Positions 6,386 to 52,130 of a stretch of DNA of 64,000 nt are shown piece by piece. Numbering within the stretch: position 1 is the stretch's first letter; each line of letters begins with the position of its first letter. The DNA is from Fragilaria crotonensis (lineage: Eukaryota; Bacillariophyta; Fragilariophyceae; Fragilariales; Fragilariaceae): the NCBI GenBank assembly GCA_022925895.1, contig JAKSYS010000242.1:1-64000 (forward strand). The letters are read 5' to 3'. Below the pieces are notes generated by a model that searched no databases, was not told where the DNA came from, and was given only the letters and a program-made list of their open reading frames with translations. Both the position numbers and the translations under genes were made by a program.

Positions 6386-6866
6386 ACAGGCCTCAGGAGC
6401 GGAGAGCTTGGAGCTTGGAACTCGGAACGGGCCATTTTAGCCAAAGTCAGACAGAGAATTTCATTGTTGCTGGTGCCAGATTCCTTATTCCAATGCATGC
6501 GATTATTAGGAAATTGCTATGATACCCCGGTAGTCGTACCGCTGGATTCTCCATACGAATGTGCTGAAAATGGGCAATACTGCAATACTCGGAGTACTCT
6601 AGACTCTAGAGTAGTAGTTGTACTGTACTCATATTCAAACTTTCCCTCGGTCAACCAACAAACCGATTCCTTTGATTCTAATTCATAGATGTCATACAGT
6701 ATATACATAGTACATACAGTACAAGTACCTGGTATGACTACAAAACCGAGTACTTGCATGATGGATGATTAATAGGTGGGATTCATAGTCATGAATATGT
6801 CATACTCCAGTACAGAATACGGTTGCCCTTGATGAGCTCTGGACTCTGGACATCGGACTATCCTTA

Positions 6867-6926
6867 GGCCGATCCTTATAGTACGACAAAACAGAAACAA
6901 AACTCCACTTTTGTTTCTGTTTTGTT
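6867..6926 (+). repeat. left terminal inverted repeat with subterminal hairpin
   Basis: The TIR runs from GGCCGATCC to about 6906 and pairs imperfectly with 10890-10929. It overlaps a perfect hairpin: AAAACAGAAACAAAA at 6888-6902 and its reverse complement at 6909-6923, with a six-base loop. Confidence 0.75.
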
Positions 6927-7275
6927 AAACGGTCGTCCCTTATAGTCAACAAAACTCCGACATTTATTTGTTTAGTTCTGTGGAGCCCCAAAAAATAACC
7001 TATCTCCGACAGATCTGGTTTTCCGTTCTGTCGTGATTTCACGACAACAAAACAGTAACAATAACGTTTCGGATGCCAGATTCCCTCAATGCAATCAAGC
7101 CCCAACCATTCATTGGAAGATTGCCTTTGGCAGTATCTTGTATCTTTTTGATCGTAAAGTTCTTTTTGTAGAACGAACTTCTAGTTGTTCTGCTTGAGAA
7201 ATTCTTTTTCTTGAGACTCCACAAAAAGTGGAGGTATCTCGTTATTTATCACCTTGAATTGCTGCTTCTCACATC

Positions 7276-8977: not shown

Positions 8978-9053
8978 TATCAGTATTAAACGTGTGTAGC
9001 TAATCGACAACGTCGTCAGTCCTCGTATGTAGTAATAGAGGCTAGGCGAGCTA

Positions 9054-10352
9054 CTACAACAATAAAGATTCTATGTCATCCTCACCATCATCTCCATCAG
9101 GTGCTCGATATGGTGGCATCGGTGACACTCGTGTGTCAGTCGTCAGATGCTGCGGTTGCTTATCAAGAACACTGGTAATGGTGGCATCGATTAACAAGTC
9201 CACATTGTCTACATTTGAAGCGTCCGCCACCTCGCCATCAATGATCTGTTCTTCGGCAAATGCAAGGTCATCAATGGCATTACCCAATTCTTGATTGAGC
9301 TTTCGAAGCTCAATGATATAGTACAATGGTCTGTTGGGATCGTCAACAGCTGCAGCACTAATCAGGAACTTCTGTTCCTGAATCATTGTTTGTTTCCCGG
9401 TCACCTTCTTGAGGTGCATTGCCACAATACGATCATTGAGCTTTGACTTTGTCTTTCCCTTGTGTGCAAGCCTTGACTGGGCGATTCCGGCAGCCTGAAG
9501 GCGTTCGCCAAGAGATGCAACTGATGCTGTTCGTTGACTGTCATCAGGCATTGAACTGATGGTGGTCCGTGTAAGTCTGGAAGAGGAGTTGTCGTCACCA
9601 TCATCATCACCATTGTCTTCTGACAAACGATGGCGCTTGCGATTGGCGTCCTGTAGTTCTTGTCTGGCTCTCCTTCGTCCAGCTAGCTTCTTTTCTGCGG
9701 TGCTGTTGAAAACTGGAGTGGACGTCATTAGGAGATCGGATCGATGGCACAGCATGTCGAAGTCTTCAACAATCGGACCCATCAAGGTGAAGACAATGTA
9801 TCCCGGAAATGTGAACGCTTTTGCGGCTTCTAGTACCTTCAGTGCCTCGTTGTGATCATGATTGTTCAAATTTGCACTTACGCCCGCAGTTGTGGAACCC
9901 ATTGTGGTATCAACAATAGGAGGAGCAGCAATGTCGGCATCAGTAGTACTACTAGTAGTATTTCTACTACTAGCATTTGCAGAAATGTTGTCACATTGCT
10001 TTGAAGGATTCATAACAAAGTACATTCTCTCTCGAACAAATTGTAGGTAATCGTCGTGGGTCATGCCCGATGGTAGATTTCCTGTTTTGATGTAATCCTT
10101 GTACGGACTGTCGGGTGCCATCACACAGGCCAATGCTTTCTTACCATTCTTGACTACTTCTTGTGCTCTCGTGAACAGAGTTCGGGGCTTTATGTGATCA
10201 TCAGGGTTTGAAGCAGTAGTATGCAGTTTACTCTGCAGGAGTAGCGGAAGTGAAATGCCATTGGTGCCACCGACTGGAATCGTGATGTGTCCCCCAAGGC
10301 AATGGAGGGACGGTTTCATTACCAATGTGCTCCTGGCGGAAGTGGTATTCAA
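9054..10352 (-). CDS. Harbinger accessory protein (putative)
   Basis: This 432-codon frame lies 77 bases from the transposase end and faces it. I do not recognise a named domain. The N-terminal third (KPRTLFTRAQEVVKNGKKAL, LPSGMTHDDYLQFVRERM) is followed by Asn/Ser/Thr-rich linkers, a basic RRRARQELQDANRKRHRL patch that could enter the nucleus or bind DNA, and a helical C-terminus ending in an acidic tail. Harbinger elements usually encode a Myb/SANT-like partner that brings the transposase to the nucleus and element ends. By position this protein could fill that role, but no Trp-rich Myb repeat is visible. The true start may lie further upstream across an intron, because another open stretch ends at 10384. 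Confidence 0.6.
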   Translation of the reverse strand: MNTTSARSTLVMKPSLHCLGGHITIPVGGTNGISLPLLLQSKLHTTASNPDDHIKPRTLFTRAQEVVKNGKKALACVMAPDSPYKDYIKTGNLPSGMTHDDYLQFVRERMYFVMNPSKQCDNISANASSRNTTSSTTDADIAAPPIVDTTMGSTTAGVSANLNNHDHNEALKVLEAAKAFTFPGYIVFTLMGPIVEDFDMLCHRSDLLMTSTPVFNSTAEKKLAGRRRARQELQDANRKRHRLSEDNGDDDGDDNSSSRLTRTTISSMPDDSQRTASVASLGERLQAAGIAQSRLAHKGKTKSKLNDRIVAMHLKKVTGKQTMIQEQKFLISAAAVDDPNRPLYYIIELRKLNQELGNAIDDLAFAEEQIIDGEVADASNVDNVDLLIDATITSVLDKQPQHLTTDTRVSPMPPYRAPDGDDGEDDIESLLL

Positions 10353-33038: not shown

Positions 33039-33947
33039 TTAACGCATGTTACGACTCAAATTATGTGTTTCAATAACCTTCCCACTCCATTTCCGTTCTG
33101 TTAAGCATTCTTCTCCTCATAATTCTATATGCTACAATTGAATCATTCTTGTACTGGCGTAGATATTCATTGAGGTATCGAACAATTGCATCGCCTCATT
33201 TTGTGATTATTGGTTCTAAGTGATACATAAAAATTAATCCATGCATGAAAATCAATTTATATGTGCGCGCGTAATTTTTTTCACACGTTCTCCGAAAATC
33301 ATGCTAATTCTTGTTCTACTGTTACGCTGCGATCAACGTGAGTCTTGTACCAACCTGGGACTTGAAAGTTTCATGCAACCTGGGACTCCTTGCCGTTGTG
33401 TGGCAAAACAACACGAGTTGCTCCACACAAAAACACAATTCTTGTTCGCTTCGCTCTTTCATTCAAGACAACAACGAGTACACTGCTTTGTTGCTCACTT
33501 CGTCTGCTGCAACAGCAGTTCCTAAAGAATTGTTCCTACATCATTTGAAACTACAATTGGCTGAGGAGGATTCATCCCTCATCAGAAGGTTGGGGCTTTT
33601 ACAGTTGGACATAAATGGTACAATTTTGTAGTTTTCAATGGTACATTTCCTACAAAACTTCACATGTCTACAGTACATGCTGTAAAAAATTGTATCATTT
33701 TGAATTTGAATGAATCTTTTTTGTTTGGCGCGTCACAAGTGCTACACATGACAAACTAACATCGCGTTTCCGTTACACTTTTCTTCCCTCCCACCGGCAG
33801 TGATTTCCCGCCCCCACAGATGTTACGACTATGTATAAAATACACTCCAATGATAACAATCCACAGTCGTTATTTAAAAAGAATGCACACTACCTACATA
33901 ACGATCTCACCGCTCACTCCATTGCCTTACTCACAAGATCAGCATCG

Positions 33948-34272
33948 ATGAATCCACCAGGCCGCAGGAACACTGACACACATTTGTCTGCTGATGGCAA
34001 GAAGCGAAAACACTCTAATCACTCTTGCACCACACTGAAGGAACGCTGTCCCTCCTGTGGTCGAGAGGTCAGGTTGGTCAAATGTCACGACACCTTTCCA
34101 CCAATCAGCAATGCGTTGAGGACTACCCCAGGGATGGTGTCCCTGAATGCACCAACACCATTGTTCGTGCAAGTGTTCCAGCAAGAACTGCAATTGAGGG
34201 ACAATGCCTCCCGGACTCAAACAGGCACACCACCTCTCACTCCATCACAAACAGATTTGTGGAACCAGTTGA
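33948..34272 (+). pseudogene. N-terminal zinc-finger segment of the Plavaka-like gene
   Basis: The ATG at 33948 opens MNPPGRRNTDTHLS, followed by CPSCGREVRLVKCHDTF, a zinc-finger-like Cys pattern such as Plavaka proteins have at their N-terminus. The frame runs to 34304 but does not connect to the main transposase frame, which is closed by a stop at 34270-34272. A frameshift or an unrecognised intron must separate them. Confidence 0.45.
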
Positions 34273-37272
34273 CTCTGTCACACCATTCTTTCCCGTACCG
34301 ATGATGATTTTCCAATTGAATCATACAATGATGAGGATGTTCCACCAAGTGAATATCATGATCGCACCATATCTGAAATCCAGCCCAGCACCACAACACA
34401 AGCAGAACAAGTCCACTTCACCACCACCCTAGCAGACGATACCATCCCCTCTCAACAGGATGGGACCACTGACTGTCACTCTACAGGCCAGGCTGACGAC
34501 TCCTTGCTTGCCGCATACGAAGGAGCCATCACCAGTATGAATGATGGGGGCTTGTCACTATCACTTTTTTCTCGTGAAGAACAGGTCCAAATTGACCTCC
34601 TGCAGACATTAAACAGACTTGGTGCTCCAATGAAGGCTTATGAGGAGGTGATGAGATGGGCTACGAGGTCAGTCCAGCAAGGACACAACTTTTGCGATGC
34701 ACAGTTGACATCACGCAAGACATTAGTTTCGAAACTCAGTGCGCGTCTCAGTCGAGTTGCCCTTGAGCCCATACGTGCAGACCTGTATCTTCCATATTCA
34801 AATGTTACAATAAGCATCGTTTACTTCAACGCTTCAGCTGTGTTCACTGACCTACTTTCCTGTCCCCAGTTGAACCGTGATGAGAATTACATCTTCCATG
34901 GTGACTTCAACCCTGATCACAGTCCCTTTGCCATCCCCTCTCGAAATGTTATCGGAGACATCAATACTGGTCGCTCCTATCACTACACTCACAGAAAGCT
35001 CTGTCAAAATCCCAACGACATGCTCCTTCCATGCGTCCTTGCAATAGACAAGACAACATGTGACATAAGCGGTTCGGGTCGCTTACCCATGGAACCCATT
35101 ACAATTCAGTACGGTCTCATGAAGCATGACGTCAGAAAGAAACCATTTGCAATGCGTGTTCTGGGATATATCAATTGTTCAACAACACATTCCCGTTCCA
35201 ACAGCAATCCAAATAGGGCGACCCCTCTACCAAGGTCTCAAGAAGTTTCCGATGCAGCCTTGAGACTAAATGAGTACCACATGCAGGTCAAGTTTATCCT
35301 GGAACGATCAGGATTTCTTGCTTTGCAAGAACATGGTTTCAAATGGAACCTCAAGTATCATGGCAAGAGTTTCCAAACTGTCTTGCATCCCTACGTTCCC
35401 TTCATCATCGGCGACACAGAAGGGCATGACACCCTGTGTGGTCACTACAGGTCGCGTACATCTGGTGTTTCACAGTTGTGTAGGGTGTGTGAATGTCCCA
35501 CAGAAAAATCTGGCTGGTCCAAAGGCCGCTACTTCACAAGGCGAACACCAGCAGCTGTCAATGATCTGGTTCACCGTGGGAACCTTGAGGGTCTGAAACT
35601 TAAGTCTCAGCACTACCTCTCGAATGCTTTTGACACAGTACGGTTTGGACAACATGACAAACGAGGTATATTTGGCGCCTGTCCAGGAGAGATTCTTCAC
35701 CTTGTCTTGATAGGGTGGTTCAAGTATGTCGTGGAATCCTTCTTTGCTCAAGCGGGGAAGAATAGCATTGCCGTTCAGAAGTATGTTACCCTCTGTCATG
35801 ACATAGGCCTTCAACTCGACAGACAGAGTGATCGCAATGTCCCTCGAACATCGTTCAGAGATTTCTCCACTGCATCTAATATCCCTGGCAACGAATACGC
35901 TGGCTGCCTGTTCATCATGCTCATATCCATGCACACGTCGCGATATACAGAGATCTTTGCCAGATCTCGTTTAGCAAAATGTCAGAAGGCTGCCGACAAA
36001 CACCTAGGTAACCCTAACTTCATGGAAGACTGGAAGGACCTTCTCACAAGCTTACTGGAATGGCTTGCTTGGTTGAAACAACCTCAGATAACTCGTGTGT
36101 CAGCACAACGATCAGTTTTTGCCACCGCACATCTGATGCGCCTTGTAAAGTTTGTGGCTCCACGATTCAAAGGCATGTCAAATAACACAATCAAGATGCA
36201 TTTGGTGCTTCACATCCACGAAGACATCATTAACTTCGGTGTCCCAGAGGTGATGAATTCTGCCTACGCCGAGTCATCCCATCGTCCGATAGCAAAGTTC
36301 ACCGTCAGGAACACTCAGAAGCGCCACAAATCATTCACATTCCAGGCAGCAAATCGTTATGTCGAGAACTTGTCCATTGATCAAGGAAGCCAGGTTGTTT
36401 CAGATGACAGAAAGAAGAATACATTAACCGCAACAGGAGTGGCAAGAGCGTGGACTGGTAAGGAGTTCACCATAACATTGGACGACAATAAGGTTCCAAT
36501 TTGTGAATGGAGATTGGACAAGAAGAAAAAGTCACAAGTTCCAAGTGTCCGTCCAATCCCTGAAGATCACGTGCTATCGATGATAGCAAACCACTGTCAT
36601 CCCCATGTCTTCCCACCAGTCATCCACTGTCAAACCGAATTTATCACTGACGAGGGTCAAATTTATAGAGCACATCCTTCCTACCAAGATGCTCCATGGT
36701 ATGACCATGTTCTCCTTGACTGGTCAGAGTGTGACGATCCACTTCCAGCCCGCATTTGCACTTTCATCAATCTGTTTAACATCAAGGCAAACGCATCTAT
36801 CTGTTTCCCGGAGTCTGGACAGGAGACAGTCCCATGCCCCCCCGGGCTGTACGCTGTGGTGGAATCATACGATCCAATCCCACCATTCACCAGTGATGCA
36901 GACGACGAAAGCTTTGATGCCGAAGATGATACCCCTCCCGATCTCTTCCAACACTACACCAAGACTCTCCTGTCAGACAACATCTCACCCAAGCTATACC
37001 TTGTCAATGTCAAGGCTATCGTTGGCCCAACAGTGGTTGTCAGGGATGTTGTGGGACATCCCTCGGATGTGTCGGTTTCAGATAGGCGGTCCCAAGACAC
37101 CTATATATTCATGGCAGTGCGTCGTAAGGAATGGGCATCTCGCTGGGAACATAAGGTAGACCTTGCGTATCAGGAGAAGAATGAGGATGGTGCGGAGTCA
37201 ACTGAGGATGAGGATGACAGTGCGACCATCAAGGACAGACGGATGTACAAGAGGATGCATGGCACAGCATAG
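34273..37272 (+). CDS. Plavaka-like (CACTA-related) DDE transposase
   Basis: The frame is open for about 1000 codons from 34273 to the TAG at 37270-37272. No ATG at its head is convincing, and it probably continues from an upstream exon. It opens with an acidic linker (TDDDFPIESYNDEDVP). The core has LPCVLAIDKTTCDISG, EPITIQYGLMKHDVRKKP and ALRLNEYHMQ, then FIIGDTEGHDTLCGHY followed by CRVCECP, SQHYLSNAFDTVRFG and GEILHLVLIGW. These blocks match a transposase family of algae, oomycetes and fungi related to Plavaka and CACTA transposases. IDKT and GDTEGHD are the probable first two acidic sites. The C-terminal third contains a conserved domain of unknown role and an acidic end. The open frame suggests recent activity. 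Confidence 0.75.
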   Translation, partial: LCHTILSRTDDDFPIESYNDEDVPPSEYHDRTISEIQPSTTTQAEQVHFTTTLADDTIPSQQDGTTDCHSTGQADDSLLAAYEGAITSMNDGGLSLSLFSREEQVQIDLLQTLNRLGAPMKAYEEVMRWATRSVQQGHNFCDAQLTSRKTLVSKLSARLSRVALEPIRADLYLPYSNVTISIVYFNASAVFTDLLSCPQLNRDENYIFHGDFNPDHSPFAIPSRNVIGDINTGRSYHYTHRKLCQNPNDMLLPCVLAIDKTTCDISGSGRLPMEPITIQYGLMKHDVRKKPFAMRVLGYINCSTTHSRSNSNPNRATPLPRSQEVSDAALRLNEYHMQVKFILERSGFLALQEHGFKWNLKYHGKSFQTVLHPYVPFIIGDTEGHDTLCGHYRSRTSGVSQLCRVCECPTEKSGWSKGRYFTRRTPAAVNDLVHRGNLEGLKLKSQHYLSNAFDTVRFGQHDKRGIFGACPGEILHLVLIGWFKYVVESFFAQAGKNSIAVQKYVTLCHDIGLQLDRQSDRNVPRTSFRDFSTASNIPGNEYAGCLFIMLISMHTSRYTEIFARSRLAKCQKAADKHLGNPNFMEDWKDLLTSLLEWLAWLKQPQITRVSAQRSVFATAHLMRLVKFVAPRFKGMSNNTIKMHLVLHIHEDIINFGVPEVMNSAYAESSHRPIAKFTVRNTQKRHKSFTFQAANRYVENLSIDQGSQVVSDDRKKNTLTATGVARAWTGKEFTITLDDNKVPICEWRLDKKKKSQVPSVRPIPEDHVLSMIANHCHPHVFPPVIHCQTEFITDEGQIYRAHPSYQDAPWYDHVLLDWSECDDPLPARICTFINLFNIKANASICFPESGQETVPCPPGLYAVVESYDPIPPFTSDADDESFDAEDDTPPDLFQHYTKTLLSDNISPKLYLVNVKAIVGPTVVVRDVVGHPSDVSVSDRRSQDTYIFMAVRRKEWASRWEHKVDLAYQEKNEDGAESTEDEDDSATIKDRRMYKRMHGTA

Positions 37273-37293
37273 CGTAACACAATTCTACACCCA

Positions 37294-38098
37294 TTAGTGA
37301 AAAACAGATGAATCAGATGTCCAACGGCTTTCAGAACTGTCACCACCATCGGATTCATATCCCTCCAACCCTGTCGTTTCCGGTTGTGGAACCTTCGCAC
37401 GGATTACATAAGGTATCGCTTTTCGTATCCCTCCCATGGCACCAGGCTGCTTTGCTCTGACAACCTCCAACTCCACTTCAGGTCTCAAGAACTTTTTTAA
37501 CAAAGTCCTCAATAGCTCAGCAAAATCCGGATCATCGAAGACATAAGCATAACTGCAAGAAAGCAGCATTGCAGGTTGTAACGTCAAGTGATCAAAACTG
37601 ACCGCCTGTATCATCGTGAGCGTTTCCAACACTCCCACATCGCCCGTGCTGTGATTAACATAGCCACTCCCCACATCATGAAGAGTCTCGTACTCCAAGT
37701 GTACATCGATTGATGCACCCGCGTTTGAAGGCACTCTCGCCATGAGCTGGCGTCGGTCATCATCTGTCCAGTATGGCAGCGCTTCTCCATGACGCGTTGA
37801 TGCCCTTGCAACGTAGTAATGTTGGGTTTCACGAAAATGCATGAAACCCAACAACCACTGTCTCGTATGCACCAACAACATGACCCATCATCACCTGAAA
37901 GTATAGCTGTAAGTGCTCGCAAGGAACCACCAACCGTTTCCAGGTTTTCAGCACCTGTAGCGTCACCTGCCATGGGTAAAGCAGATCTTCCTTCTTTCCC
38001 TTCCTTCCTCCAACGACCATCCTGAAGCCCTTCACCCACCCAAGGACATGCTCATAATCTTGCTTCGGTCTCCCGTGCAACCCTCCCACCGTTACCAA
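37294..38098 (-). pseudogene. C-terminal segment of the oxygenase-like gene or a separate gene
   Basis: Sense continues in a different frame from about 38060 (KQDYEHVLGWVKGFRMVVGG, LYPWQVTLQVLKTWKRLVVP). After another break near 37890 it runs from 37881 to the stop at 37294. This last part reads FMHFRETQHYYVARAST, GYVNHSTGDVGVLETLTM and SFDHLTLQPAMLLSCSYAYV, with an acidic Ser-rich end. No family is recognised. It ends 21 bases from the convergent Plavaka-like gene. Confidence 0.4.
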
Positions 38099-40155
38099 AT
38101 TTGCTCATAACGTTCTGCTTGGGCACTTTATCTTGAGGCAGACTCGGCGCTTTTCCATTGCACATTCCCAGTGGATGCGCATGTCTGACATCATACTCCA
38201 GCACCTCTGGCATCCAACTTGGGTTTCGTAAACTCCACATCATGTTGCACGTAGCACTCGCTCCAAATCCAGGCTGCACATCACATAGTCTTGTGGTGTC
38301 CTCCGAATACCCAACACCCCGGGGAGCATCAGCATTTGTCACGGACGTTGTGTCTGGCAAACGACGGCGAGGACTAGCCAACATCCGGTCTTCATGCGAA
38401 CGATCTTGACCAGCGTCCTCATTGGAGCGCTTTTTACCGTGATCCTCAACGTCCATGCTCCTCTGGCGCTCCTCATCGTCAAGCGTCACGATTATGTCTC
38501 GATTGACAGGCCACCGTATCTCCGTTTCCGAAACCAACCGATCATGCCATTTCCGATGAGGAGGTGGTCCACCTGGCATTTTCCTGGGTGTATTCTTTCT
38601 CATGCCATGAGAGTATTGTCCTTGACCCGCGTCAACTTTCCCAGAATCCTGTGTCACATCACGTGGCTTTTGTGAAACCACATGATCGTTGCGGCCATCG
38701 TGGAATCCGTCGCGTTCTCTCACATGGGTCTGTTCCACCATCTGATGTTCTTCCAAGCCCATCAAGTGGCTAGGGGAACTTCCATAATCAGAATGGTAGT
38801 ATACGGAGTCCACCCTGCTGATACGAAGATGGACAGACGTAGGAGGATGTTTCACTTCATCAGCACATCCCGAAGCCGGGTTGACGACCAATTCACCACA
38901 ACTCCTGGTGAGAAGACCAGTACTGCTGCTGTCTTCCGCCAGCTCATCACAACGTGCAGCATGTGGAACAGGAGGCTGCTCTTCACAAACTGCTGCAGGT
39001 GCAACAGTTTGTGAAAGCTTCGCCTGCAAGGGAGTTGCCTCATCAGCCACCGACGTCTCAACAGCGACATCATCAGCACCAACCAAATCCACCGGATTGG
39101 TGATGTCACCGTCATCGAATGGCTCTACTTCAATTCCAAGGTCGACACTACCCTCATCCGAGCAGTCACTGGCGAGGCTGTTGTCCTCCCATGATTCCGC
39201 GTCATCATCAGGCGCAACACTGACGGATGTTTCATCAACGTCCATCTCCACGTCAACCACAGCGCCACCAACACCCACCACTCCCGTCGAAGGACATTCC
39301 TTGGCTTGAGCCGCATGCACCACATCATGCGTTGAGGTGCCGCCTCCAGATGTCAACAAGTTCGCCTTCGCATCATCACTTGCGATTGCCAACGCACGTT
39401 CAGCCTCTGTCAGAAGCTTGTTCAGGTCACGAACAGACCTATCCGCAACACTGACTGCCCTCTTCGCTTCCTCTAAGGATGCAACAGCCACATCAAGCTC
39501 CCCGCGCAACGTGAGCACCCTCTTGGAAAGTTCACCAACTTCCAACTTTGCAGAACATTGGTACGATGCAGCTGCCTTGCGCGTCCCATACCGAACAATA
39601 GCAGTCTTTGCAGCAAAGAATGTTCCATACACATGTTTTCCCTCAGCACGCCTCATCATTGAAGTGCAGTGCCTGATGAGCCTGCCATCCCAGCTGATCA
39701 TGACACCATGTTTAAGACGTATAGCCATTCCGTTGTACGTTGGACCCTTCCCATCTCGTTTTCCGTACACATTCGGGAGAACAAAGTACCAGTCGTCAGT
39801 ACTTCCAGGATCATCCTCGGTCCAGATGCTAAAACCCTGAGAGGCATCATTAACATCATAGTGTGACGCATTGGAAAGGTCGACACTGACATCCATGGTG
39901 TTCGTAATGTTAGCAAAACATCCATCTCCAGCCATCCCATGCCTGGGAATGACCCCACCATCCACTTCCAGATCCTGCATTGTCCTTAACACAGCTGGAA
40001 TCGAAACAGCTGCAAGATTTGCGGATGCCACCACAGCATCCCTCAGTAACGACTGGGCACTCTCCTCAGAGGACGTCACATAGCGGGTTCTGTGCACACC
40101 ATCAAGGCATATCCTAGTACCAATTGGGTGCATGGAACCCAGGTCACCTTTACCG
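38052..40155 (-). pseudogene. putative 2-oxoglutarate/Fe(II) oxygenase-like domain protein, frameshifted
   Basis: The family sense begins near 40155 with GKGDLGSMHPIGTRIC. It continues through LLRDAVVASANLAAVSIPAVLR into SNASHYDVNDASQGFSIW, WYFVLPNV, AIRLKHGVMISWDGR and LIRHCTS. The HxD (HYD, His codon at 39861-39863), the distal His in IRHC about 64 residues later, and the beta-strands between them fit the double-stranded beta-helix of 2-oxoglutarate oxygenases. Fungal Kyakuja-Dileera-Zisupton transposons are known to carry TET/JBP oxygenases, so a DNA-base oxidising role is worth testing. The assignment is my inference. A coiled-coil (VGELSKRVLTLRGELDVAV) and a long acidic region follow. 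The piece ends at 38052. Frame breaks at both ends suggest decay. Confidence 0.45.
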
Positions 40156-41654
40156 GCCGGCTCTCGCCGAGTTTTGGTTACGTGATCGAACCGTCTGTGC
40201 ATGTTTCCTGATGTCACCAAGCATCTTATCAGCAGCCGGGCCGAGTGTCGGTAGGTATCGAATCTGTATGACACTGTCCCGCGATACAGACATCTTCCCG
40301 GTTTGCGAACCCGGGTGGTTGACTTGCACCGAAACACACACATCAACGTCACCATCGGAGGGATCGATCACAAGACTCTCGCGTATGCTGATGACCCGGT
40401 GCAGAAATCCAGAGACGTAGTGTCGACAGCCACGTTTCGCCGAAGGGGACGCCTCCAAACCAGCGTTGTATGCCCTGCGAAGATAACGCCCCTCGACCAT
40501 GGCGTAATCCTGACCCTCCACATGGTCAGGAGCAAGACGAGGCCCCTCCTCATCAGGACATTGCCGAGCATACATGACCTTCTTCATTGCCTTAGGGAAT
40601 GGAAGGAGTCTCGACGTAATTCCCATCGCATCAGAATCCAGAAGGAAATTTGAGGAACCACGAGAAATTCTCCACTTCCATATTTTGTCCACGTTGCCAT
40701 CCCACAAACGGCTAACGTAGCCACCTTTAGCGAAACGATTGATCCTAGATCCATTACGTACAATCCGAAGCCAATTCATGTCCATCGGAATGTGAGTGTT
40801 CGGAACGCCGACCGACTCGTGTCTTTTCTCACGATGACAATAGTAAACACCAGCCTCTGGCAGAACAACCACAAGACATCGATATCGCTTGTCATACTTC
40901 GCATCGAGGAATTCCGGCATCACCCTTAGCTTCACAGGGGTGTCCACCACCTCCTTACCCGTCCTACGCCTAGGAATCCTCACCGTACGTGCGATAACGG
41001 CATCCATCATCACAATCTCCAGGTAGTCAGGTCGCGTGACGACGGAATGGATATCAACTCCATCATTCATGTGATCGCGCATTGCAAGTGACACATTCGT
41101 CAAGCCATACATTTCCAGGAAAGTGCGGTGAATGACCTGAACATTCGTGTTCAACAATTGAGCACTACCAGGAATCCCAAACACAGGGTCGTCAGGGACA
41201 GGCTTCCCTTCATCGCCGACAACACCGTCTTCCAAGTTTGATGGAATCTGTTGATGTCGGTGCGAGGCAAACACTTTGCGATGACATTAGCAAACTGAGT
41301 CTTCGAAGGATGCCACGCTTTGCGAGACATCGGATCACCACCAGGAGCCTTCCCTTCCAAGTCACCAAAGACACGTGGATTGGAAGAGCCCGCGATGAGA
41401 TTACGAGCAGTCTCACCCGGAAGGGTCCTACCACCAAAGAGAACGAGTGGCTGTTCCTTGAAAGGAACCGATCCACCGGTTCCAACCTTCCCATGCTTGG
41501 AGCTCCGATCTACGTCGTACTCGAGGGGCTTCATGTGCGCAGCACCACCGGCCTTCCTTTTCCTTACTATGTTGGAGGAACTTTCATTATTCACAATAAC
41601 AGATGGATTATGGCGCAAAGGAGAAGAACCGTCCTTCCGTTGACTCCCCGACAT
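40150..41654 (-). pseudogene. N-terminal half of a transposon-borne gene with oxygenase-like domain
   Basis: The likely start is the inner ATG at 41654 (MSGSQRKDGSSPLRHN), in a basic, disordered leader. Near 41250 the sense passes to another frame (SNLEDGVVGDEGKPVPDDP) that runs to 40150. It contains IHRTFLEMYGLTNVSLAMRD, LEIVMMDAVIARTVRIPRRR and a long beta-rich section (RCLVVVLPEAGVYYCHREKR). I do not recognise a named domain. A second frame change near 40155 leads into the oxygenase-like part. It lies antiparallel to the Plavaka-like transposase. Confidence 0.5.
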
Positions 41655-41989
41655 GATCTCGTCACCAAAAAGCCTGACGCAGCACAGTATGAACAGCACA
41701 CTGATGGTGATGTTGTTCAGGGACAGAACAACCTTAAAACCCGGGAAGAGAATCCGATGGAACTTGAGGTGACCACTATATGGTGAGTCGATCAACAAGT
41801 GACCCTTCAGAAATCCGTCGCCAGAGTTGAAACCAAAGGATACTCCAGATGATCACGACAAGCACCACTTTATGGTGAGTGCTGCCTGTCAAATTACTCA
41901 AGGATGAGCAAGAAGACCGTGAAAATGGGAACGTATCCAACCACAGCTACTACACTTTCGCTTTGTGGTGGTTGCTGCCGCCAAAAAAA

Positions 41990-42610
41990 AGTCACTCCAA
42001 ATGGGAGAACGTTCAAATGTATAAAATTAAAGTATAAAATTCTCCAACAGAGTGGGATGGCTTCCCGTCACGATGCAACGGTTCCGAATTGCTGCCTGAA
42101 ACTTGGCAATCCTGATGGGACAGCAAGCCGCAGGCTCCTCAGTAACCCGCACTTGTAGAATGGAAACGCAGAACTCCACAAGTTGCAACTCCAAATGGGA
42201 GAGCAAGCTTGACGTTCAAAACGTAAGAATTCCTAAATGGAGAACGGAGTGTGCAACCTGATTATCAGTGTGGTCGCAGACGGGGAGCGCAACGCCAGGA
42301 GCCACGTCAAACTGTGTTTTCAACCTTTGTGTTGATGCCGCCTTGATGCGACAAGACAACGCCGATCGGCGTGGACGCAAACGGATCAAAGCACAACTGT
42401 AGTCACTTGCGACGCGTGGCTGCGAACCGTTCCAAACGCAACCGCAGTCACTTCCAACGCGTGATAGAAAATCCTGTCAATCAGGTGTTCACGTCCGAAA
42501 AGACCGACGTCGACACACTCAATTCGCAATCTCGCAACTCCTAATGGGAGAGCTTCAACTGCTTGCCAGTAACCGATCAAACAAAGTCAACTCCTTGATG
42601 GGAGGACAGT
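41990..42610. repeat. scattered CTCC...TGGGAG subterminal-type repeats
   Basis: CTCC(A/T)AATGGGAGA or close forms occur near 41996, 42190, 42232, 42539 and 42592. Each is a small imperfect inverted repeat. CACTA-type elements carry short repeats near their ends that bind their own proteins, so this could be the right subterminal region of the Plavaka-like element. No matching array was found on the left. Confidence 0.5.
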
Positions 42611-42614
42611 GATG

Positions 42615-43480
42615 ATCAAAGAAACCAACTTTTGTGCTGTGATTCGCAGCGCAAAAGCAAGAAAACCAAGAGAGGGAAACAAGATTAGCACAAGCACTTA
42701 TTTTTGCACGCGTGTACTATGCCAAAATAAGTAGCATAAGGATGTGTTGTAGCAAGAATCAGATGTGGGACTTCGATTTTTTTCCTTAAGTAAAAGGAGA
42801 TAGCAATGTGAATATTAAGTGATTAACTATGTGTGACTTTATTTTGTGCATACTACATACAGTCGTGCACAAGCTCTGACGGCGTGACGTACTTAAAGTA
42901 ACAGGTCTTGCACATGATGTTTGTTGATAATTCATCAACAACAAAGACTTAAGTATAATTAATAAAGCAAAAAATATAACATGTGAATCAGAAAATAGCA
43001 ATAGAAGAGACTAGTAACACGGTGTTCAACATTGAGTGACATGTATACTCCATCTACCAGTTACATGTGTTATTGCAAAACAATGATAGTGACACATATG
43101 TATGGGAAATAGGACATGTAGAACGTGCGTACTGACAATAGCGATTCCTCGTACGCATAGTATCAGATGTACTAGTTTTAGAAAGTAGGAATATTTGCTT
43201 CCGTTGGAGTACACGTAGTAGTAGGTAGCAGTAATAAGCGTACTGTCATTGGTTCAAGCTATATGTGCTGTACGTAGCAAATGTGTACTACTGTGGTACA
43301 GGATAACTACATACGGAATGCGGAGTTGAGTTATTGGTACAGCTGGTTTTTCGTTGAAGCGTCCGAACGTAGGTTGTGTACAATTCGTACCATGCACGCA
43401 TATTATTTCCATATCCTTTATCAAGTTTTAGTAGCAGCTGTCTCCTGCGACCATAAAAATCCATCTCTGTCGACATGATG
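42615..43480. other. AT-rich intergenic stretch
   Basis: No supported gene was found. The stretch is AT-rich with a few GTAC words near 43130-43400. Confidence 0.4.
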
Positions 43481-46478
43481 ATCACACCTCGTCCTCCTCG
43501 TTTCTTGTCTTTGCTTCTTTGAGTGCACTGTTGACGAAGCCACGATCGAAGTCCAATGCACACCTGTGAGACTTGAACAATTTCATCAGGCGTTGGATTT
43601 CGGAGTACAGAAGTCCTTGATCTTCTGTTATACTTGTGGCGATGAAGTTGTGGGTACGACCTTGCTGCCTCATTCTCTGCTGACTCTCAAAAGATGATGG
43701 TAAGTACAAATATATGCGCGTGCTCTCGAAGCAAACTTTCCCATCCTTTCTTTGGTCAACTCCTTGATTGAACACGTTGAATCTCTCACAAGTTGTTTGA
43801 AATTCTCTCGTCCCCTCTTTTGAGATACAGGAACCCGTCGGTAGAAAGCCTTTGCGTGACCCCAGCAAAATTCAATGCCTTCCCTGCTAATTCGGCATGG
43901 AACTTTGGTGTTAGAAGTACCGTGATGCCCAGCTGAGATCCAAGGTACTGAAGTGCCGTTTCCTCATCCTTGAAATCAGCACACTCTGCGATGAGATGGC
44001 GTAGGGAATACCGTAAGTCAATCTTCCTGAAATTGTGTCTTTCTTTCCGTCGACAGTGTATTTATCTAACTCACTTGGATCAATCAGTCCTCTTTCCCAC
44101 AGAACTTGTAGCATGCCTTTAGATTTTCCTTCCCATCCAGATAGGATTTTGTCGACTTCTTTGTGAGTTTCGATTGAATTGTTTCTTGCCAATTCCTGAA
44201 GTTCGGCTTTAGTGTACCCGCGTTTTTGTTGGAGCGTCACACCCTTTTCGTTGAGCTCTTCAAGAAGGGTCTTCTTTGTTTTTTCAATTGGCTTGCTTCT
44301 TTTCCCATTATTCGATCATGACGTTGTAAGTCACGTTGCTCTGGTGTCAAATACCATGGGCCACAGTCGTCAGTATTGAATACCATTGACTGTGTGTCTC
44401 CGATGCCCAGGGTTGGTGAGTGTGTGCCCAGATAACCCTCTTGTGACATTATGACTGTGTCTCTCATCTGCTGTTTTGATCCTCCAAAGTTCTTTTGCAT
44501 GTTGATCGCACTGAGTGCACCATCACGTTTGCGAGCGTGTCCCTGAGAATGATCGAACAAAAATACAAAATCGAAGCTTGGATATAGGATTCGTAGGCAA
44601 TCAACCACATCCTCAAGCTGAAGACTCATGTGGTATGAATTCCAATAACCCTGATTATTGATTCCGATGAACAAGTATTTTACGAAGGGGGATTCCAACA
44701 AAATCGGCTTCCTCGTTGTTCCCAAGATTTCCATCGCAGCTGTTGTATCGAGGTAATTTCCACCGCCGAGAGCTGCTGTTTGCCTTGCCATATTCACTCT
44801 TTGTAACTCATCCTCTGTCATCTGCCTGCCAAAGCCGAATTCGCGTGACACGAACGCAGAAAGCATATACCCATCGCCCTCCGACTTGGGCAGAAGTGGC
44901 ACTTGTCCTTTTGGCCCAACCCATTGTTTGGAGGACAGTAGATACTGCGCGAAGACAGACTCATCTTGACCAATAATCATCAAGGGCCTGACTGATGATG
45001 ACACTCGTATGCTTGTTTTGCTTCAACATCTCGCGCTGCCTCTTCTCCCTTTTGATTCTTGATATGCAATTCTTCCAATAGTCAACGTGAAACTCAACCC
45101 GAGTCTCATCAGATATAATATCATAGTAATGATGTCCGAAATCTGTGTCTAAGGTCTTGATCGTAGCAGCTTCACTGAGTGGAAGCTGAATCCAACGCCG
45201 ACAACGTGGCTCAAGCACGGTAAGGTAGTTCTTGCAGAATGCATTTCGATGTGCGACAACATCTTCACGTTCATGGCCATCGACGTAGAAGCTCTTCCTT
45301 CTCGTATCATACTTGAATCCGAGTAATCGCATCCAGCGCCATGCTGTTGTGAAGCTCATGTTTTTAAGTCTATGTGCGCGAAGGAATAGCGCAATATCAT
45401 CCTCATCTTGATCGACATCGACAGGATTGCTAGTAGGATTAATGGCTGTAGTACTTGTACTCAATGTTGACGTTTCTGCAGTATCTTCGTCTACTACCGA
45501 TTCACGTTTCCACAACGCAGCCAGCCTTGGGATTACAGACGAATGAACGAATTGATAGACTGCTTCAATTGAAAGATGTGACAAGTTCTCGACGCCAAAT
45601 GCAACAATCTGCTCCTTTGCGCATGGAAACACTTCGAGAACTCGAGGAAGAGGTCGTTTCCCACACTGAACAGACAAGTTTGGGTTTGGGAAGCATTCAA
45701 AATTACGGAACACAATGTTCCAATTTGCGATGGTTTTATAGAAGGTTGCTTGCGTCATACCAACAGTGTTCAATACCTTACAAGATTCAGTGCAACAGTC
45801 TTGCCACGTCCATTCATTCATTTTGCAAGAGCCAATCGGTACGCATAACAAAGAAACGTCGCCCTTTGCCTGACAGCGCATATCTCAGCTTTGGTACACA
45901 CGTTGTCGATATCTCTACCTTGCACAACATTCCTCCAATTATTTTCTTCCTCATGAACGCTTTGAAGCAGTACAATCCTTCTCTGAAGTGCTTCCATTGG
46001 AGTTTCAGAATCGAAATCAGTATCATTCCCATCCTCGCAATTCGTTGTCCCATGTTTCTTTGGTGGTTTGAACACTCGGTATGCCTCTGGGCTACATGGC
46101 CAGTAACTTGAGCTAGAAGCATCAGCAGCAATCATTACAGCGGCCGCACCAGTATCTCCTATCCTTGCTCGTTTGCTCGGTGATTGCTCAACAATGTCTC
46201 CGATCCTTCCTCCCGTTGTAGCCTCCGTGTTGACAGGTGTAGTTATCATTGTGTCGAGCGGGTCTTGATCTTGTGCTTGGAATGACTAGCACATTTGCGG
46301 CTGCTTCCATTACTTTTTCGTTCCATGCACTGTTAAGTGGACATGGGTACCGTATCTGCCTTGATTTCTCTGTGAAGTAGTAATAGAATGTGTTCTTGTA
46401 TGTGACTCTGAACACTCCTGTTGTGTTTGATCCATCAAATCGGTGCATCAATTCTCCGAAAGAAGCCGACTTGGACAT
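43480..46478 (-). pseudogene. DDE transposase of a family common in fungi, multiply frameshifted
   Basis: Minus-strand sense starts upstream with MSKSASFGELMHRFDG (46478) and continues through MEALQRRIVLLQSVHEEENN. The main frame (45881-44961) has an N-terminal domain, then MSFTTAWRWMRLLGFKYD and FYVDGHEREDVVAHRNAF, a signature I know from repeated fungal transposases. The next frame (45004-44237) has the first acidic site in IIGQDESVF, then LPKSEGDGYMLSAF and the second Asp in FVFLFDHSQGHA. A further frame has PKFHAELA, and a one-base shift then gives GIEFCWGHAKAFYRR with the catalytic Glu near 43865. The order D, D, E is complete but spread over at least four frames, so the gene is dead or badly sequenced. 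Confidence 0.65.
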
Positions 46479-46484
46479 CCCTGT

Positions 46485-47495
46485 ATTGAACCTTCTTACA
46501 TCAATGACGCCAAGGGACGCATTGACATCAAATCTCCTAAAGCTTCAGCCCAAGTTGATGCAGGAAGCCAGCAATTTGACAATCTCGGACCATACGTGAT
46601 GTCTGTTCGAAGTAGCATGACGGCATCAGTCAAAATAGCATATTTACCTTTGTCAACCATTGTATCTATAGATTTATCACCAACAGTAGGTTCACTGAGT
46701 TACATAGGAAGGTGACTGCAGGAGGTAAATCTATAGATTAGAATGGAAATGTTGCAAACGACGGCTTGAAAATCTCATTGTGGAAGCCTTGCTTCCAACA
46801 CGACAAAGTCCCGCCCTCGTGACGTCATATTGGCAGTGAAATCGGTCTAGCGTAGAATTAATACTGGGACGTGCGCCCGGATTTTAGAACAGAAAACCAG
46901 CTGTACCTGGTACTGTAGAGTACGTCAAGCACTAATAGTACTACCTAGGTAGTATGTGTTTCGATGTTGTTCTGCGACAAACACCAGTACAAAAGACCAA
47001 AAACGATAACAGCTTTGGTACAGCGTACCATTAATTTTTGCTGTTGTGAACCAGCAAAGTATGCGCAGCATTGTTCAAGCGACGTCATAGTTCATAGCAC
47101 TATATTACTGGCGCAGTTTCAAAATTAAAAAATGCGTCATGCAGTAATGAACAAATTAAAACATACAGTGTATGTTCAAAACAGTGACATATACTGTACA
47201 AGCAGTATATGCAGCGTGTAGTTAGATGTTTTGGATTCAAACATGTAGATGTATACTACATGTTTGAAATAATAGTTAATTTAAATAAAATGTGGTACAT
47301 CTCACTGCTAAGTATTTGAATACTTGAAATAAATGACTACAACATGAATAAATATGAAACACAGCTACGTACATTGTCACGTAGGGTATACGTAGTCAAA
47401 GCTTGAACGACTCCGATAGCAATAAAATGCAAAGAAGCTTAACATAAAAAATTCACAACACAAAAGGCACTTAAAACGCATCTTAAACACCATTT
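46485..47495. other. intergenic stretch, AT-rich
   Basis: No supported gene was found. ATCTATAGATTTA at 46667-46680 and TAAATCTATAGATTA at 46726-46740 form an inverted pair. A GTAC patch lies near 46900-46950. Confidence 0.4.
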
Positions 47496-47501
47496 TGAAC
47501 A

Positions 47502-47819
47502 ATGGCAACAGCAAAGGGTAAGAAAGCAAGGGCAAAGAAAAGGGGAACTCCAATAGTAAGAGGTGTGCTTGTAGCAAACAATGCAAACACAGGAAGCCCT
47601 GGTAACAACAGGAGGGTTAGTGGCCATAGAAATGGTGAAGTTGAGTCACCATCAGTACTGGAACGACTTGGACAAAGTAATTCTCAGGAGGCAAACGATG
47701 GGGCGGTTTGGAAAATGCACGCGGTTCTCCATACAGAGATGCCATTGACCACTCCGTCGTCCACTCCTCCTACGGGAGTGGACGCCCTTCCAATGGAGGG
47801 GTTACCAACGCAGCCGTGA
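47502..47819 (+). pseudogene. basic N-terminal segment of an accessory protein
   Basis: The ATG at 47502 opens MATAKGKKARAKKRGTPIVR, a strongly basic start that could serve as a nuclear signal, followed by low-complexity sequence. The frame stops at 47819. Protein-like sense continues in other frames through 47843-48020 to the next piece, so it may be the first part of the gene at 48083. Confidence 0.35.
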
Positions 47820-48082
47820 GTATTACAGCAACAACGTAGTCTTATGGCAGGACCACAGATAGGTGACAGATCGGGAAATGGTGGACGCATTTCTACGTTC
47901 AGAGATGCTGCAACAACAACCAATCTGATGGAATCGCTCAGACAACAAGTCCAAGTAAGGAGGAAACGCCCTAACAACGACAACTACTGGAAACGGCGGA
48001 CCACTACGAAGGGTTATTGGTGATCAAGCTTCCCAGAATCGTGATTTTCCATCGGCAACTACTGATGGGTTGATGGAGGAGG

Positions 48083-49041
48083 TTGATGAGAATACCCCCC
48101 ATTCATGCTGCGCTTGGTAGGGATGAAGATGACGATCTGATGGACAACACAGAAACACAACTGTCTGGGAAATCTCTGTCATACAGGAAGGCCAGACATT
48201 GTCAACAAACACATGTAACGCATCGTATACAGAACTTGGTAAAGAAAGTCATCTTCAGAAAACTCAAGTTTGTGACCAACGATGCTCTGTTCTGGAAGGC
48301 GATGAAGGTTGTCATTGACGCTGAGGATCCTGTGGAGCAAAGTCGGTTTGTGAAGATATACAAAACATGTGTCCTTCAGAGTCTGAACACAAAGAGGAGT
48401 GAACAGGCGGGTGCAAAGATTGCTAGGGAGCTCCTTATTGCAAAGAATCATCCTATTGGGAGTCGAGAGCCCCCACTCAGTGGAGACGCTTTGCAAGTTG
48501 AGAAGGTCAAACTGATCACGAGAGAGGCATTCCACTGGTTTATTGGAGAATTTCTTGAGTGCGTCTCTGGTAGGAGGGTATGGGAAGGAAAAAGTTTACC
48601 CACAAGGTGTCGGATCCAATGGAAAGGGGAAGTGCAGAGAAAGTTGTGACTGTGTCAGATGAAGCGTTTGCCATTCTTGTTTATGAAAACTACATTGATA
48701 AGTGGTTGCGGAAATACACCTGTGAGCGACAAGGGGTACAGGGTGAAAACACAAGTGAGATTGAGAAGAGAATTAAAGGAAGATACACTGCAGGAACAAC
48801 AACACGAGCAGCAAACATAATGTATGGGGGGTGGAGTGATGAGGGCCTCATCCGGTTCAATCAGTTGTGCAGATTGGTGGCAATCGACCGACAGAATGAA
48901 AATGCAGCGCAGATGGAGGAACAGGTTCTTCAGAGGCTGAGAGAACAGAGGTATGGAATTGGTGGAATTAATGATGGCACGGAACAACCTGATGAATCAA
49001 TGCTGCGATGGGAGCCTGTGGAGGCATTTTGTGAATTGTAG
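48083..49041 (+). pseudogene. diatom transposon-associated protein, one frame break
   Basis: The first frame (48083 to about 48585) has VTHRIQNLVKKVIFRKLKFV and RFVKIYKTCVLQSLNTKRSE, leading to ECVSGRRVWGRKKFTHKV across a frame change at an A run near 48590. The second frame has TVSDEAFAILVYENYIDKWL, the weakly Trp-rich MYGGWSDEGLIRFNQLCRLV and a helical tail ending at 49041. This layout (nuclear, helical, GGWSDEG motif) matches a diatom family often found beside transposases. Function is unknown; it may be a DNA-binding partner of a transposase. The lesion is in a short homopolymer and could be a sequencing error. Confidence 0.5.
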
Positions 49042-49168
49042 AATAGGAGAAACTTCAATGCAAATCTGTCACCGTATAAATATGAATAGTCACTGTTATG
49101 TTGTTACACGTAATAATTTTAAGTCAGATGGTAAACTGCAATATTACGTGTGAGTAAAAAATGGCGAA

Positions 49169-49355
49169 TTCGAATATAAATGTTACAGAGCTGCACTGGA
49201 CTCAAAATTTTTTGTTTCTTTGGGTCGGCAAATGGTACACTTTGGTGCAGAGAAACAAAAAATTGTGAATTGTAAAAAACATACTACAGTGCTCAGACAA
49301 AATTATTGAAGTGTACAAAATAGTTACAGGCGTGTACTGGACTCAAAGAAAAAAT
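49169..49355. repeat. paired direct and inverted repeats at a transposon edge
   Basis: GTTACAG followed by ACTGGACTCAAA occurs at 49169-49196 and again at 49323-49348. Between them AAAATTTTTTGTTTCT at about 49205-49220 pairs with AGAAACAAAAAATT at about 49251-49265. This may be the edge of the pogo-like element or of the accessory gene's element. Confidence 0.5.
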
Positions 49356-49424
49356 GTACAGTGTAAAATTTATTTTACAGTGTAACATCTGCAGCCTTCT
49401 GATGCTGTCGCGAAGGTCTGTTGA

Positions 49425-52130
49425 TTACTGCATGTCCTCTTCGAGTTCCGTATGCACCAAGGGATCAGCCACTGCTGGCGGTTGTGGCATGTAATGAAGT
49501 GTCGGAATTGCAGGCTCCGTTGGGTCATCTCTTCCGATGGTGGCGTGTAATCGCTCAAGGAGCGCTGCTTTTGTTGTCGGAACAGGTAAGTCGCCGGCAT
49601 TCTTGTACCATGTGACCATTAGTTTCAGTTCACTAACGCTCATTTCCGCAGGAATCTTGTTCTGTGCTTTTAAAGTATCAACCTTGCTCTTGAGAGATTG
49701 AAACTCACGCAACTTCTTCTCTTGACGATGCGAAAGGACAGCTGCCTGCTGCTGCTCTCTCTCTTCCAAGTTATCGAGAACATCCGGACCTGTCATCCAT
49801 CGCTGTGCTGCGACATGAAGTCCGGAAGAATACTTCTTCTTCTTCTCACTGATGATTTGTTTTGCCGTTTCAACCCTCTTGCGCCGGTTTTCTTCTAAAT
49901 TAACACCATTCCTGGCATCGTCACGAGCTCGGGTCTCAAGTATTTCATCGATCAGGGATCCCGCTAGCCCTTTGGATAAGTTGAGTAATTCCACAACATG
50001 CAAACCTTCTGCGGGTATCATGACATCTTCCCTGCCATCATCATCACCATCGCTACCACCAGCACCACCAGAAACCAGTCCTGCTCCCGGAGCAGGGCCT
50101 GCTGCATACCGAGTTGCCGCAATTTCAGGGTGAAGAAGACAATTGTAGTTGAGTGGATTCCATCCTCGATCTGCGATGGCTGATTTGTTGTGTACAACAC
50201 GTGCGAAGGAATCAGCCCATGCCTGATTAACAATGTAAGTAATGTCCTCTTTGTTGATTCCGAATTGAATGCCTGCTAACTCTTTTCTTCTCAGTAATTC
50301 TCGTTTGTACCTTGTAAGCGCCATTTTAAAACAGCCATTCTGTTCACTTGAGTCGCCAACTTGCCAGTAACTCGTGCCATACGGCACGCCCACACATGCA
50401 TTCCATTTTGTACCGATGCCGTCTTTGTCGTTTACATACCTCAAGAATGGCAATTCGAAACGGCTGCCGTGTCCGTCAAGAATTAGAAAGGGATGAATGC
50501 CATCGGATCGATCGAAAACGCCAATGTTATCAATGGCGCGAAGCATTTCCACTAGCAACTCTGATGTAATGCTGCCACTTCGGAGCAGCAACAGAAAGTG
50601 GGAACTGTCTTTCCATTGAAGTGACACACTGGTCCTTGTGGGTGTCGTTTGTTGATTCCGCCTGTGTTTGCTCTTCTGTCATTCTTGTCGCCAACCCAAG
50701 GAGCCGATGCATTTAATCCGGACCCAGCTCGTGCATTTCCTTGGCAGAGAATATAATCGCACACATGACAGGTTCGCCTGTTGCAGCGGTGAATCCTAGA
50801 ACTGTAAAATGTGAGTCTTTGGTCGCTGCCTTTATTTGAGGTCGAGAATCTGCTTGACACAAGAATTTCTCACCACCGACATGCCCATCCTTTGTTGTAC
50901 AGGTATTGGAACCGACCTCATCTACAAAGGAGTTTGTCAGGTCGTTGAATTAGGTATTGCGTTGGCAGTCAAATGCTTCTTCGGCATGTTCACAATTTCT
51001 CCTTGTCTGTCAAGCTTTACCTTCGTATCACATTTCGATGCAATGCCATGCTCAACCATCGCTTCGTAGATGTGGGCATACATCTCCGAGAAATTTTCGT
51101 AAGTGCACCATTCAGCTCGTTTAGCCTCAAATTTCACCGAGCGTTTGCTTCGGATGATATGCTGATGCCTTTTCATGAATCTGTTCCAGTATCCAGTTCC
51201 TAACAGCATTTTTGTCTCGACGTCCTCTGCAGTTGCTGGTTGCTCTTCTCCTGGTTGTCGTTCGCAAGAAGCAGTGTGGAAGGTGGAAGCGGTGCCGCTG
51301 AGCGTCGACGACGACGACGACGACAAGGAGGAGGACGACTCTTGCATTGCGATTGACTTCTGCTTCTTCCGGTGCTTCTCCCGCTTCTCCATGATGGCTT
51401 TTGCTATCACTGTCCCTTCTATCATGGAATTGGCAAGATGAAGACCCATCGTCGCGTTGATTGGACAGCGCATTTGAGCAAGCTGGAGAATAACTGCAAT
51501 CAAGTAAGGTTCAACTGCAGCCATCGGAGATGTCGTTCCTTGCGAGACAACTGGGTTAATGTGGTTTCTCTTGCATCGACTGCGAATTGTGGATGGATTG
51601 ATTGTAGAGTTCTCGACGTTGTAAAATGCCTTTGCTTTCTCTATAATAGTAGCTAAAGTGCCGTGCATTAGTCGAGCTGTTGATCCATCTTGTTTTCTCT
51701 TTTTCTTTAGCTCCTCTTGGTACTGCTTTGTTGCAGCAAGCGTTGCAAGTCGTTTGCGTTCCTTCAAGTCTCGTTTGCTCTGCACTGCTACCTTTTGGAC
51801 GCCCACCAAGATTATCCTCACTACCAGATGAAGTGGTGCCAGGCATTGTGTCACTATTGCCACCTGTGTCTAGCGTCAATGCTGAAAGGGTTGAAGTGGA
51901 TTGGCCACCGCCATCGTTGGCAGGAGAAGCGGCGACATCCATGTCATCTGGTGGTCTCGCAGCTTCGTCTCTCTTCATCTTCTCCTTGTTTAGCTTCTTT
52001 ATGTGATTTCTCAACATATCTTTTGTCAGCCAAGGAAGGGTTGGCTTCATGCTGTTTACAATGTCCGTCATTGCCTTGTACTTGAGGACACCACCGTTGT
52101 TGGCTTTTCGACTTCAATCTTCCGAGCAAC
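49425..52130 (-). pseudogene. Jerky/pogo-like DDE transposase, frameshifted
   Basis: Minus-strand sense begins near 52071 (MKPTLPWLTKDMLRNHIKKL) and includes a GRPKG AT-hook-like motif. It then passes to another frame (51863-50937) with HGTLATIIEKAKAFYNVENS, a helix-turn-helix region and GTGYWNRFMKRHQHIIRSKR. Near 50930 it shifts again to NSFVDEVGSNTCTTKDGHVG, the first Asp region, and HFTVLGFTAATGEPVMCAII. After another break, 50627-49425 holds the second Asp in PFLILDGHGSRFELPFLRYV and the third site in SYWQVGDSSEQNGCFKMAL. The C-terminal half is helical, with a long coiled coil. The family is common in diatoms. At least three frame breaks make this copy inactive. Confidence 0.7.

Follow-up and report, generated by a model that had tools for sequence, protein, structure and literature searches.

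Background

The closest described system is that of the TET+ PlavakaB transposons of Agaricales fungi (PMC12730594; this and the other papers are cited from excerpts of their text), in which a Plavaka transposase is combined with an internal oxygenase-type gene carrying an HxD/E...H motif, and which are recognised by the termini 5'-CATCA..TGATG-3' and target duplications of 2 or 3 bp. An anti-silencing role was proposed for the fungal Plavaka enzymes, and was noted there as not experimentally validated (Kojima 2025, PMC12730594). In the same source Plavaka transposases are described as having no similarity to those of the KDZ (Kyakuja/Dileera/Zisupton) transposons, which also pair with TET/JBP genes, and are placed in the CMCT group. 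Beyond fungi, Plavaka has been reported in Amoebidium (PMC11244446). A further point of comparison is CMD1, a vitamin-C-using relative of the TETs from Chlamydomonas, which the excerpted text does not describe as part of a transposon (PMC7854593). Here we describe a Plavaka-type transposon with a convergent oxygenase-like gene in a stretch of 64,000 nucleotides of the diatom Fragilaria crotonensis (contig JAKSYS010000242.1, positions 1 to 64,000; 'the window', contig C161 below).

The diatom element resembles TET+ PlavakaB in its Plavaka transposase, its CATCA..TGATG termini, its 2-bp duplications and the internal gene of the HxD/E...H type. It differs in that the fungal PE-type enzymes have HxE where the diatom gene has HxD (in 23 of 23 domain segments), in that no 2-oxoglutarate (2OG) binding Arg was identified, in the presence of a third conserved gene, and in its host, a diatom in whose genome alone the domain is matched at least 150 times. 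TET-bearing Plavaka elements have already been described in fungi (PMC12730594). Among the open-access literature matches listed, none reported Plavaka in a diatom or a TET-like gene carried there by a transposon, and the word diatom is absent from Kojima 2025 (PMC12730594).

A three-gene Plavaka-type transposon

By its genes, ends and copies, the element is a three-gene cut-and-paste DNA transposon of the Plavaka type that was amplified in the diatom. Searches of the host genome were made in the 62.1-Mb assembly that includes the window; contigs are given as C numbers and loci as L numbers. The sequence-only reading had proposed an oxygenase-like gene beside a Plavaka-like transposase at 38052-41654. 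Both proved real, as a minus-strand open reading frame (ORF) of 771 amino acids and a plus-strand ORF of 999 amino acids with many matches in the genome; genes do lie at the place proposed, but the element is larger, spanning 33580-49404 with a third gene at its right end. The whole element and its transposase are laid out as follows:

33580..49404, plus (transposase orientation): whole Plavaka-type transposon copy, 98-99.6% identical to the copies on C134 and C340, with differing flanks
33580..33589, plus: left terminal inverted repeat CATCAGAAGG, a left end common to other copies and similar in divergent families
49395..49404, minus: right terminal inverted repeat, reading CCTTCTGATG on the plus strand, from copy comparison
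33578..33579, no strand: left 2-bp target site duplication CT, from copy comparison
49405..49406, no strand: right 2-bp target site duplication CT, from copy comparison
34273..37272, plus: transposase ORF, an open frame of 999 amino acids with the Plavaka motif set and matches in the genome
35041-35058, 35404-35430 and 36262-36282, plus: candidate D, D and E of the transposase, our choice, with the motifs read after PMC12730594
35476-35496 and 36196-36222, plus: CxxC and HxxxH of the transposase

All four copies that were read at both ends (window, C134, C340 and the more distant C529) have the termini CATCA...TGATG and a matching 2-bp duplication: CT in the window, GA and CA for the copies on C134 and C340, and likewise CA at either end of the C529 copy, which has like ends. 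The flanks of the element differ between copies. With the pattern used, no right end was found at three further loci (L039, L040, L041), and families with diverged proteins start with CATCA, CATCG or CCTCA. The element measures about 12.26 kb when a nested insertion is left out. Over 12,306 aligned columns the three near-identical copies (window, C134, C340) carry 6, 5 and 21 private substitutions, so that the family moved recently; since gap columns (109) outnumber substitutions (32) among them, some frameshifts may be assembly errors.

The transposase query gave at least 67 match rows in the genome, which were merged to 44 loci. In the window transposase IIGDTEGHD is followed by LCRVCEC, HLVLH and YAESSH in this order, and the motifs recur in the family alignment. 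This agrees with the Plavaka arrangement, in which C(2)C and H(3-4)H fall between the second D and the E of a D, D, E set, the acidic residues being putative. The Pfam family PF18759 (Plavaka) was found above cut-off at family loci including C456, C8, C341, C251, C529, C109, C1 and C30, and matches four of the nine aligned transposase members at E up to 0.1 (best 1.1e-7), while the window copy itself gave no PF18759 match. An hmmscan of the nine transposases against all of Pfam (E 0.1) listed Plavaka and no KDZ, a model that was not searched singly. The link to KDZ drawn by the sequence-only reading has to be corrected: a transposon does travel with an oxygenase-like gene, but its transposase is a Plavaka, dissimilar to KDZ and grouped with CMCT (PMC12730594). 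As a separate observation, a second set of Plavaka matches (e.g. C872:110523, C140:31359) reaches over more of the C-terminal portion of the Pfam model (~72-318) and has no oxygenase-like gene listed nearby.

Genomic linkage and conservation of the oxygenase-like gene

The gene order within the element is: transposase (plus), oxygenase-like gene (minus) and third gene (plus). The latter two genes comprise:

38052..40367, minus: oxygenase-like ORF of 771 amino acids, in the frame of the conserved domain
37294..38051, minus: C-terminal tail belonging to the oxygenase-like gene but read in other frames here, matching by eye the tail of the 1099-amino-acid frame at L015
39600..40154, minus: conserved oxygenase-like domain
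39846-39863, minus: HxD motif
39660-39692, minus: distal-His motif WDGRLIRHCTS
39606-39635, minus: last strand HVYGTFFAAK
40153..41286, minus: N-terminal part of the oxygenase-like gene, conserved, its frame in the window copy differing from that of the domain
41151..41852, minus: open frame, by eye an extension of the oxygenase-like gene at its N-terminus, with no Pfam match at cut-off
47499..49041, plus: conserved third gene, with open frames at 47499-47819, 48074-48649 and 48574-49041

The oxygenase-like gene was found within 12 kb at 36 of the 44 transposase loci, and in all 36 it is downstream and convergent; this one-sided linkage rules out a host gene that lies beside the transposon by chance, and bears out the expectation of the sequence-only reading that homologues are tied to transposases. 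The third gene, too, occurs within 12 kb at 36 of the 44 loci, always (36/36) downstream and on the same strand. With a more distant query the oxygenase-like gene was recovered beside two of the eight other transposase loci (C39, C869). Starting from the oxygenase-like gene, a third gene is present within 12 kb of at least 62 of 150 loci (in its usual place in 59 of the 62), and starting from the third gene, an oxygenase-like gene is present within 12 kb of at least 62 of 113 loci (in the usual place in 57). These figures cover 150 listed of the 152 oxygenase-like matches and 129 third-gene rows merged to 113 loci; as the genome searches scored the best candidates only (for the transposase the best 46 of 559), the linkage counts are lower bounds, and as C466, C183 and C265 share flanks, the copy counts include segmental or allelic duplicates. 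Transposase and oxygenase-like gene also diverge together (Spearman 0.65 for 198 pairs from 21 loci, a set with a few duplicated loci; 0 of 2000 permutations as high). Plavaka copies lacking the oxygenase-like gene seem to exist as well, 53 of 80 Plavaka rows having no listed oxygenase-like gene within 12 kb.

For the third gene at least 129 match rows were found in the genome (query 48074-48646 only), and four long copies gave no Pfam match at cut-off. Its product has a disordered-looking N-terminus plus a domain.

Long unbroken oxygenase-like frames occur elsewhere in the genome (1099 amino acids on C160, 1291 on C829), and in these copies a single protein comprises a conserved N-terminal region, the domain and a tail that varies. 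The domain has at least 152 matches in the 62-Mb genome, and a stop falls within the match in 12 of the 150 listed. The HYD...RHC block that contains the motifs lies at 39660-39863 (minus strand) in the window copy. None of the 12 aligned domain members departs from H98, D100, D103, W155-R158, R161 and H162, and HxD and the distal His, i.e. all three candidate iron ligands, are kept in every one of 23 segments (from 25 loci, of which L028 and L029 were dropped because the match was split; L005/L016 and L008/L017 are the same places, leaving 21 places). The pattern WDGRxIR has 93 exact instances in the genome, a count that omits copies in which the rest of the motif was altered; the next residue is His in 92 of them, and the reversed pattern, used as a control, has none. 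The sequence-only reading had made its proposal dependent on homologues with HxD and distal His, and such homologues were recovered. The ratio of nonsynonymous to synonymous substitution rates (dN/dS) of the domain is 0.062 between the window family and the C160 copy, which points to purifying selection in this one independent comparison, the others being outside the usable range. A mobile and recently active element, judged by its copies, keeps this candidate iron-ligand signature across a large divergence.

Relation to known oxygenase families

We hold it moderately probable that the convergent gene encodes an oxygenase with a double-stranded beta-helix that depends on Fe(II) and is most likely akin to TET/JBP; this enzyme would oxidise bases of the element and so counteract silencing. 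Its motifs argue for a putative Fe(II)-oxygenase, and they make membership of the TET/JBP dioxygenases (human TET2, Naegleria NgTET1, phage gp2) plausible. The HxD...H iron-binding triad of that family is found in the same order in 23 of 23 segments, and the Asp at H+5 (D103, invariant in 12/12 members) corresponds to the Asn or Asp that TET2, NgTET1 and gp2 show at this position; its equivalents Asp350 (CMD1), Asn1387 (TET2) and Asp234 (NgTET1) contact the 5-methylcytosine (5mC) base at N4 (PMC7854593). By eye, the domain shares a VLP strand with TET2, and its last strand ends in FFAAK, similar to YFAHK and FYQHK of the TET/JBP enzymes. With hhalign the distal-His strand aligned to that of TET2, His on His, with a score of 22.2, which was reached by none of 200 and none of 146 column-shuffled decoys (best 20.6 and 20.8). 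The sensitivity of this comparison is limited, as the controls phage-NgTET1, phage-TET2 and TET2-NgTET1 gave probabilities of 88%, 31% and only 4%; the profiles used 16 of 19 phage sequences and 77 of 80 AlkB loci.

Various observations weigh against this reading. In the window copy the oxygenase-like gene is not intact, the N-terminal part (40153-41286) and the domain being in different frames, and the two nearest copies have frame breaks in it as well: on C134 and C340 one frame runs through that junction, but the gene is broken at other points. Of the 150 oxygenase-like loci, at least 36 have a listed transposase within 12 kb. The CpG observed/expected ratio (0.78 and 0.65 for the element's two parts, 0.87 for the nested insertion, 0.81 and 0.91 for the flanks) shows a depletion that is weak as a footprint of past methylation. 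Unlike the known TET/JBP enzymes, the diatom domain is missed by Pfam Tet_JBP (which matched nowhere in the genome up to E=1) and is accompanied by long extra N- and C-terminal parts. No 2OG-oxygenase family was listed in the Pfam scans of the domain, the Pfam and PHROGs scans together yielded nothing credible, and neither a TET nor any other 2OG oxygenase came up when solved structures were searched, whether with the single domain or with profiles. The single-sequence AlphaFold model (mean predicted local distance difference test score, pLDDT, of 29) is too poor to show the fold. Compared with NgTET1 and with phage TET/JBP, the hhalign scores did not exceed those of decoys, 21 of 200 and 25 of 146 of which, respectively, did as well; the former alignment lies off the active site and the latter puts the phage motif on H149, not on H162.

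One alternative explanation is that the resemblance is coincidental and the gene codes for a transposon protein unrelated to oxygenases, in which His and Asp happen to be conserved; for it speak the lack of a credible database match, the poor single-sequence model and the phage and NgTET1 alignments that miss the active-site register. The order, spacing and invariance of HxD...H speak against coincidence, as does the fact that hhalign registers the same His on both TET2 and AlkB, and we judge it very improbable. The hits that were obtained among solved structures were rejected as unrelated to oxygenases, and no relatives were confirmed in viral contigs and prokaryote genomes.

The comparison with AlkB bears on a second explanation, namely that the enzyme belongs to a different branch of the Fe(II) oxygenases, be it AlkB-like or with RNA or proteins (e.g. 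histones) as its substrate, and would help the element through alkylation repair or a change of chromatin instead of 5mC oxidation. Here hhalign pairs the distal-His strand with LEHGDVVVWGG..RL..H of Escherichia coli AlkB, and the whole-domain score, obtained without decoys, is higher for AlkB (23.6) than for TET2 (21.9), a further point against a TET-like enzyme, next to the missing Tet_JBP match. The core alignment with AlkB, although it registers the distal His on H162, scored 16.4 and was no better than decoys (27 of 146 as good), the residue at H+5 is Glu in AlkB and Asn or Asp in the TETs, as in the diatom domain, and the fungal Plavaka oxygenases are reported as TET/JBP (PMC12730594). 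We therefore consider another branch unlikely.

The last points that count against a TET-like enzyme concern the substrate-binding residues. The Arg that binds the 2OG C5-carboxylate (TET2 R1896, NgTET1 R289) has no counterpart in the domain, the position being H174 by eye (Asn in L031) and G177 in the hhalign register, with uncertain alignment of the strand; the base-contacting His of TET2 (H1904) likewise has none and reads Ala by eye. The absence of a conserved Arg after the distal His in the aligned members, together with the long N- and C-terminal parts of uncharacterised nature, would suit a protein that has kept the fold but is no oxygenase, for example a pseudoenzyme or TnpA-like partner that assists the transposase by binding DNA or by regulation. 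This is improbable in our view, given the three iron ligands kept in 23/23 segments and the distal His in 92/93 motif instances, and given that CMD1 is a TET relative that works without 2OG (PMC7854593). CMD1 shares with the diatom protein an algal origin, the Asp at H+5 and the lack of an Arg available for the 2OG C5-carboxylate, its Arg410 aligning with the TET Arg but pointing away (PMC7854593). Of the TET/JBP-type 2OG/Fe(II) oxygenase that the sequence-only reading had put forward, the HxD...H motifs stand; the profile support is weak and mixed, and the 2OG Arg is seemingly missing.

Potential role of the element

Taking the TET/JBP-like enzyme as the preferred reading, the element is probably an anti-silencing transposon. 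The convergent gene would make the Fe(II)-dependent oxygenase, this enzyme would oxidise methylated bases on the DNA of the element itself, and the oxidation would weaken the 5mC-based silencing by the host, so that the transposase could be expressed. The co-substrate is uncertain because no Arg was identified at the place where the TETs bind 2OG; given this apparent absence, one may ask whether the co-substrate or the product is an unusual one. The genome contains 13 match rows for C5-methyltransferases, and in the diatom Phaeodactylum tricornutum 5mC is described as limited to transposons (PMC12344493). Both agree with the base editing to escape silencing that was proposed before; the editing as such we infer. 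If the preferred reading is true, the capture of a DNA-oxidising enzyme by Plavaka extends from fungi to a stramenopile alga, and the idea that transposons fight silencing by editing DNA marks becomes testable in diatoms.

A bolder variant, which we regard as rather unlikely, is that the element carries its own DNA-modification kit, in which a TET-derived enzyme, independent of 2OG like the vitamin-C-using CMD1, would write a modified base on the transposon and the co-oriented third gene would provide its partner, as a reader or for a second modifying step. Were this so, the diatom would hold a DNA base not described so far, which a transposon produces for its own use.

Neighbouring features and host

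One further feature interrupts the element:

43340..46903, no strand: nested younger transposon with ends CAGCTGGTTTT..., TA-flanked and with inverted ends, not present in the C134 and C340 copies

This insertion of 3.6 kb is Tc1/mariner-like as judged by its TA duplication, and the single ORF of it that was scanned (44961-45884) gave no Pfam match at cut-off. The right flank of the element (49425-52113) contains minus-strand ORFs that by eye resemble a pogo-type transposase, two of which were scanned without a Pfam match at cut-off. In L015 at 4697-9773, a locus on C160, two different Plavaka-like transposase stretches adjoin, possibly an element nested in an element. Finally, the diatom host assumed by the sequence-only reading is supported by silicon-transporter genes, a family with 19 matches in the genome (best E 4e-193); at C97:29749-33762 three silicon-transporter domain matches lie within one open frame of 1456 amino acids.

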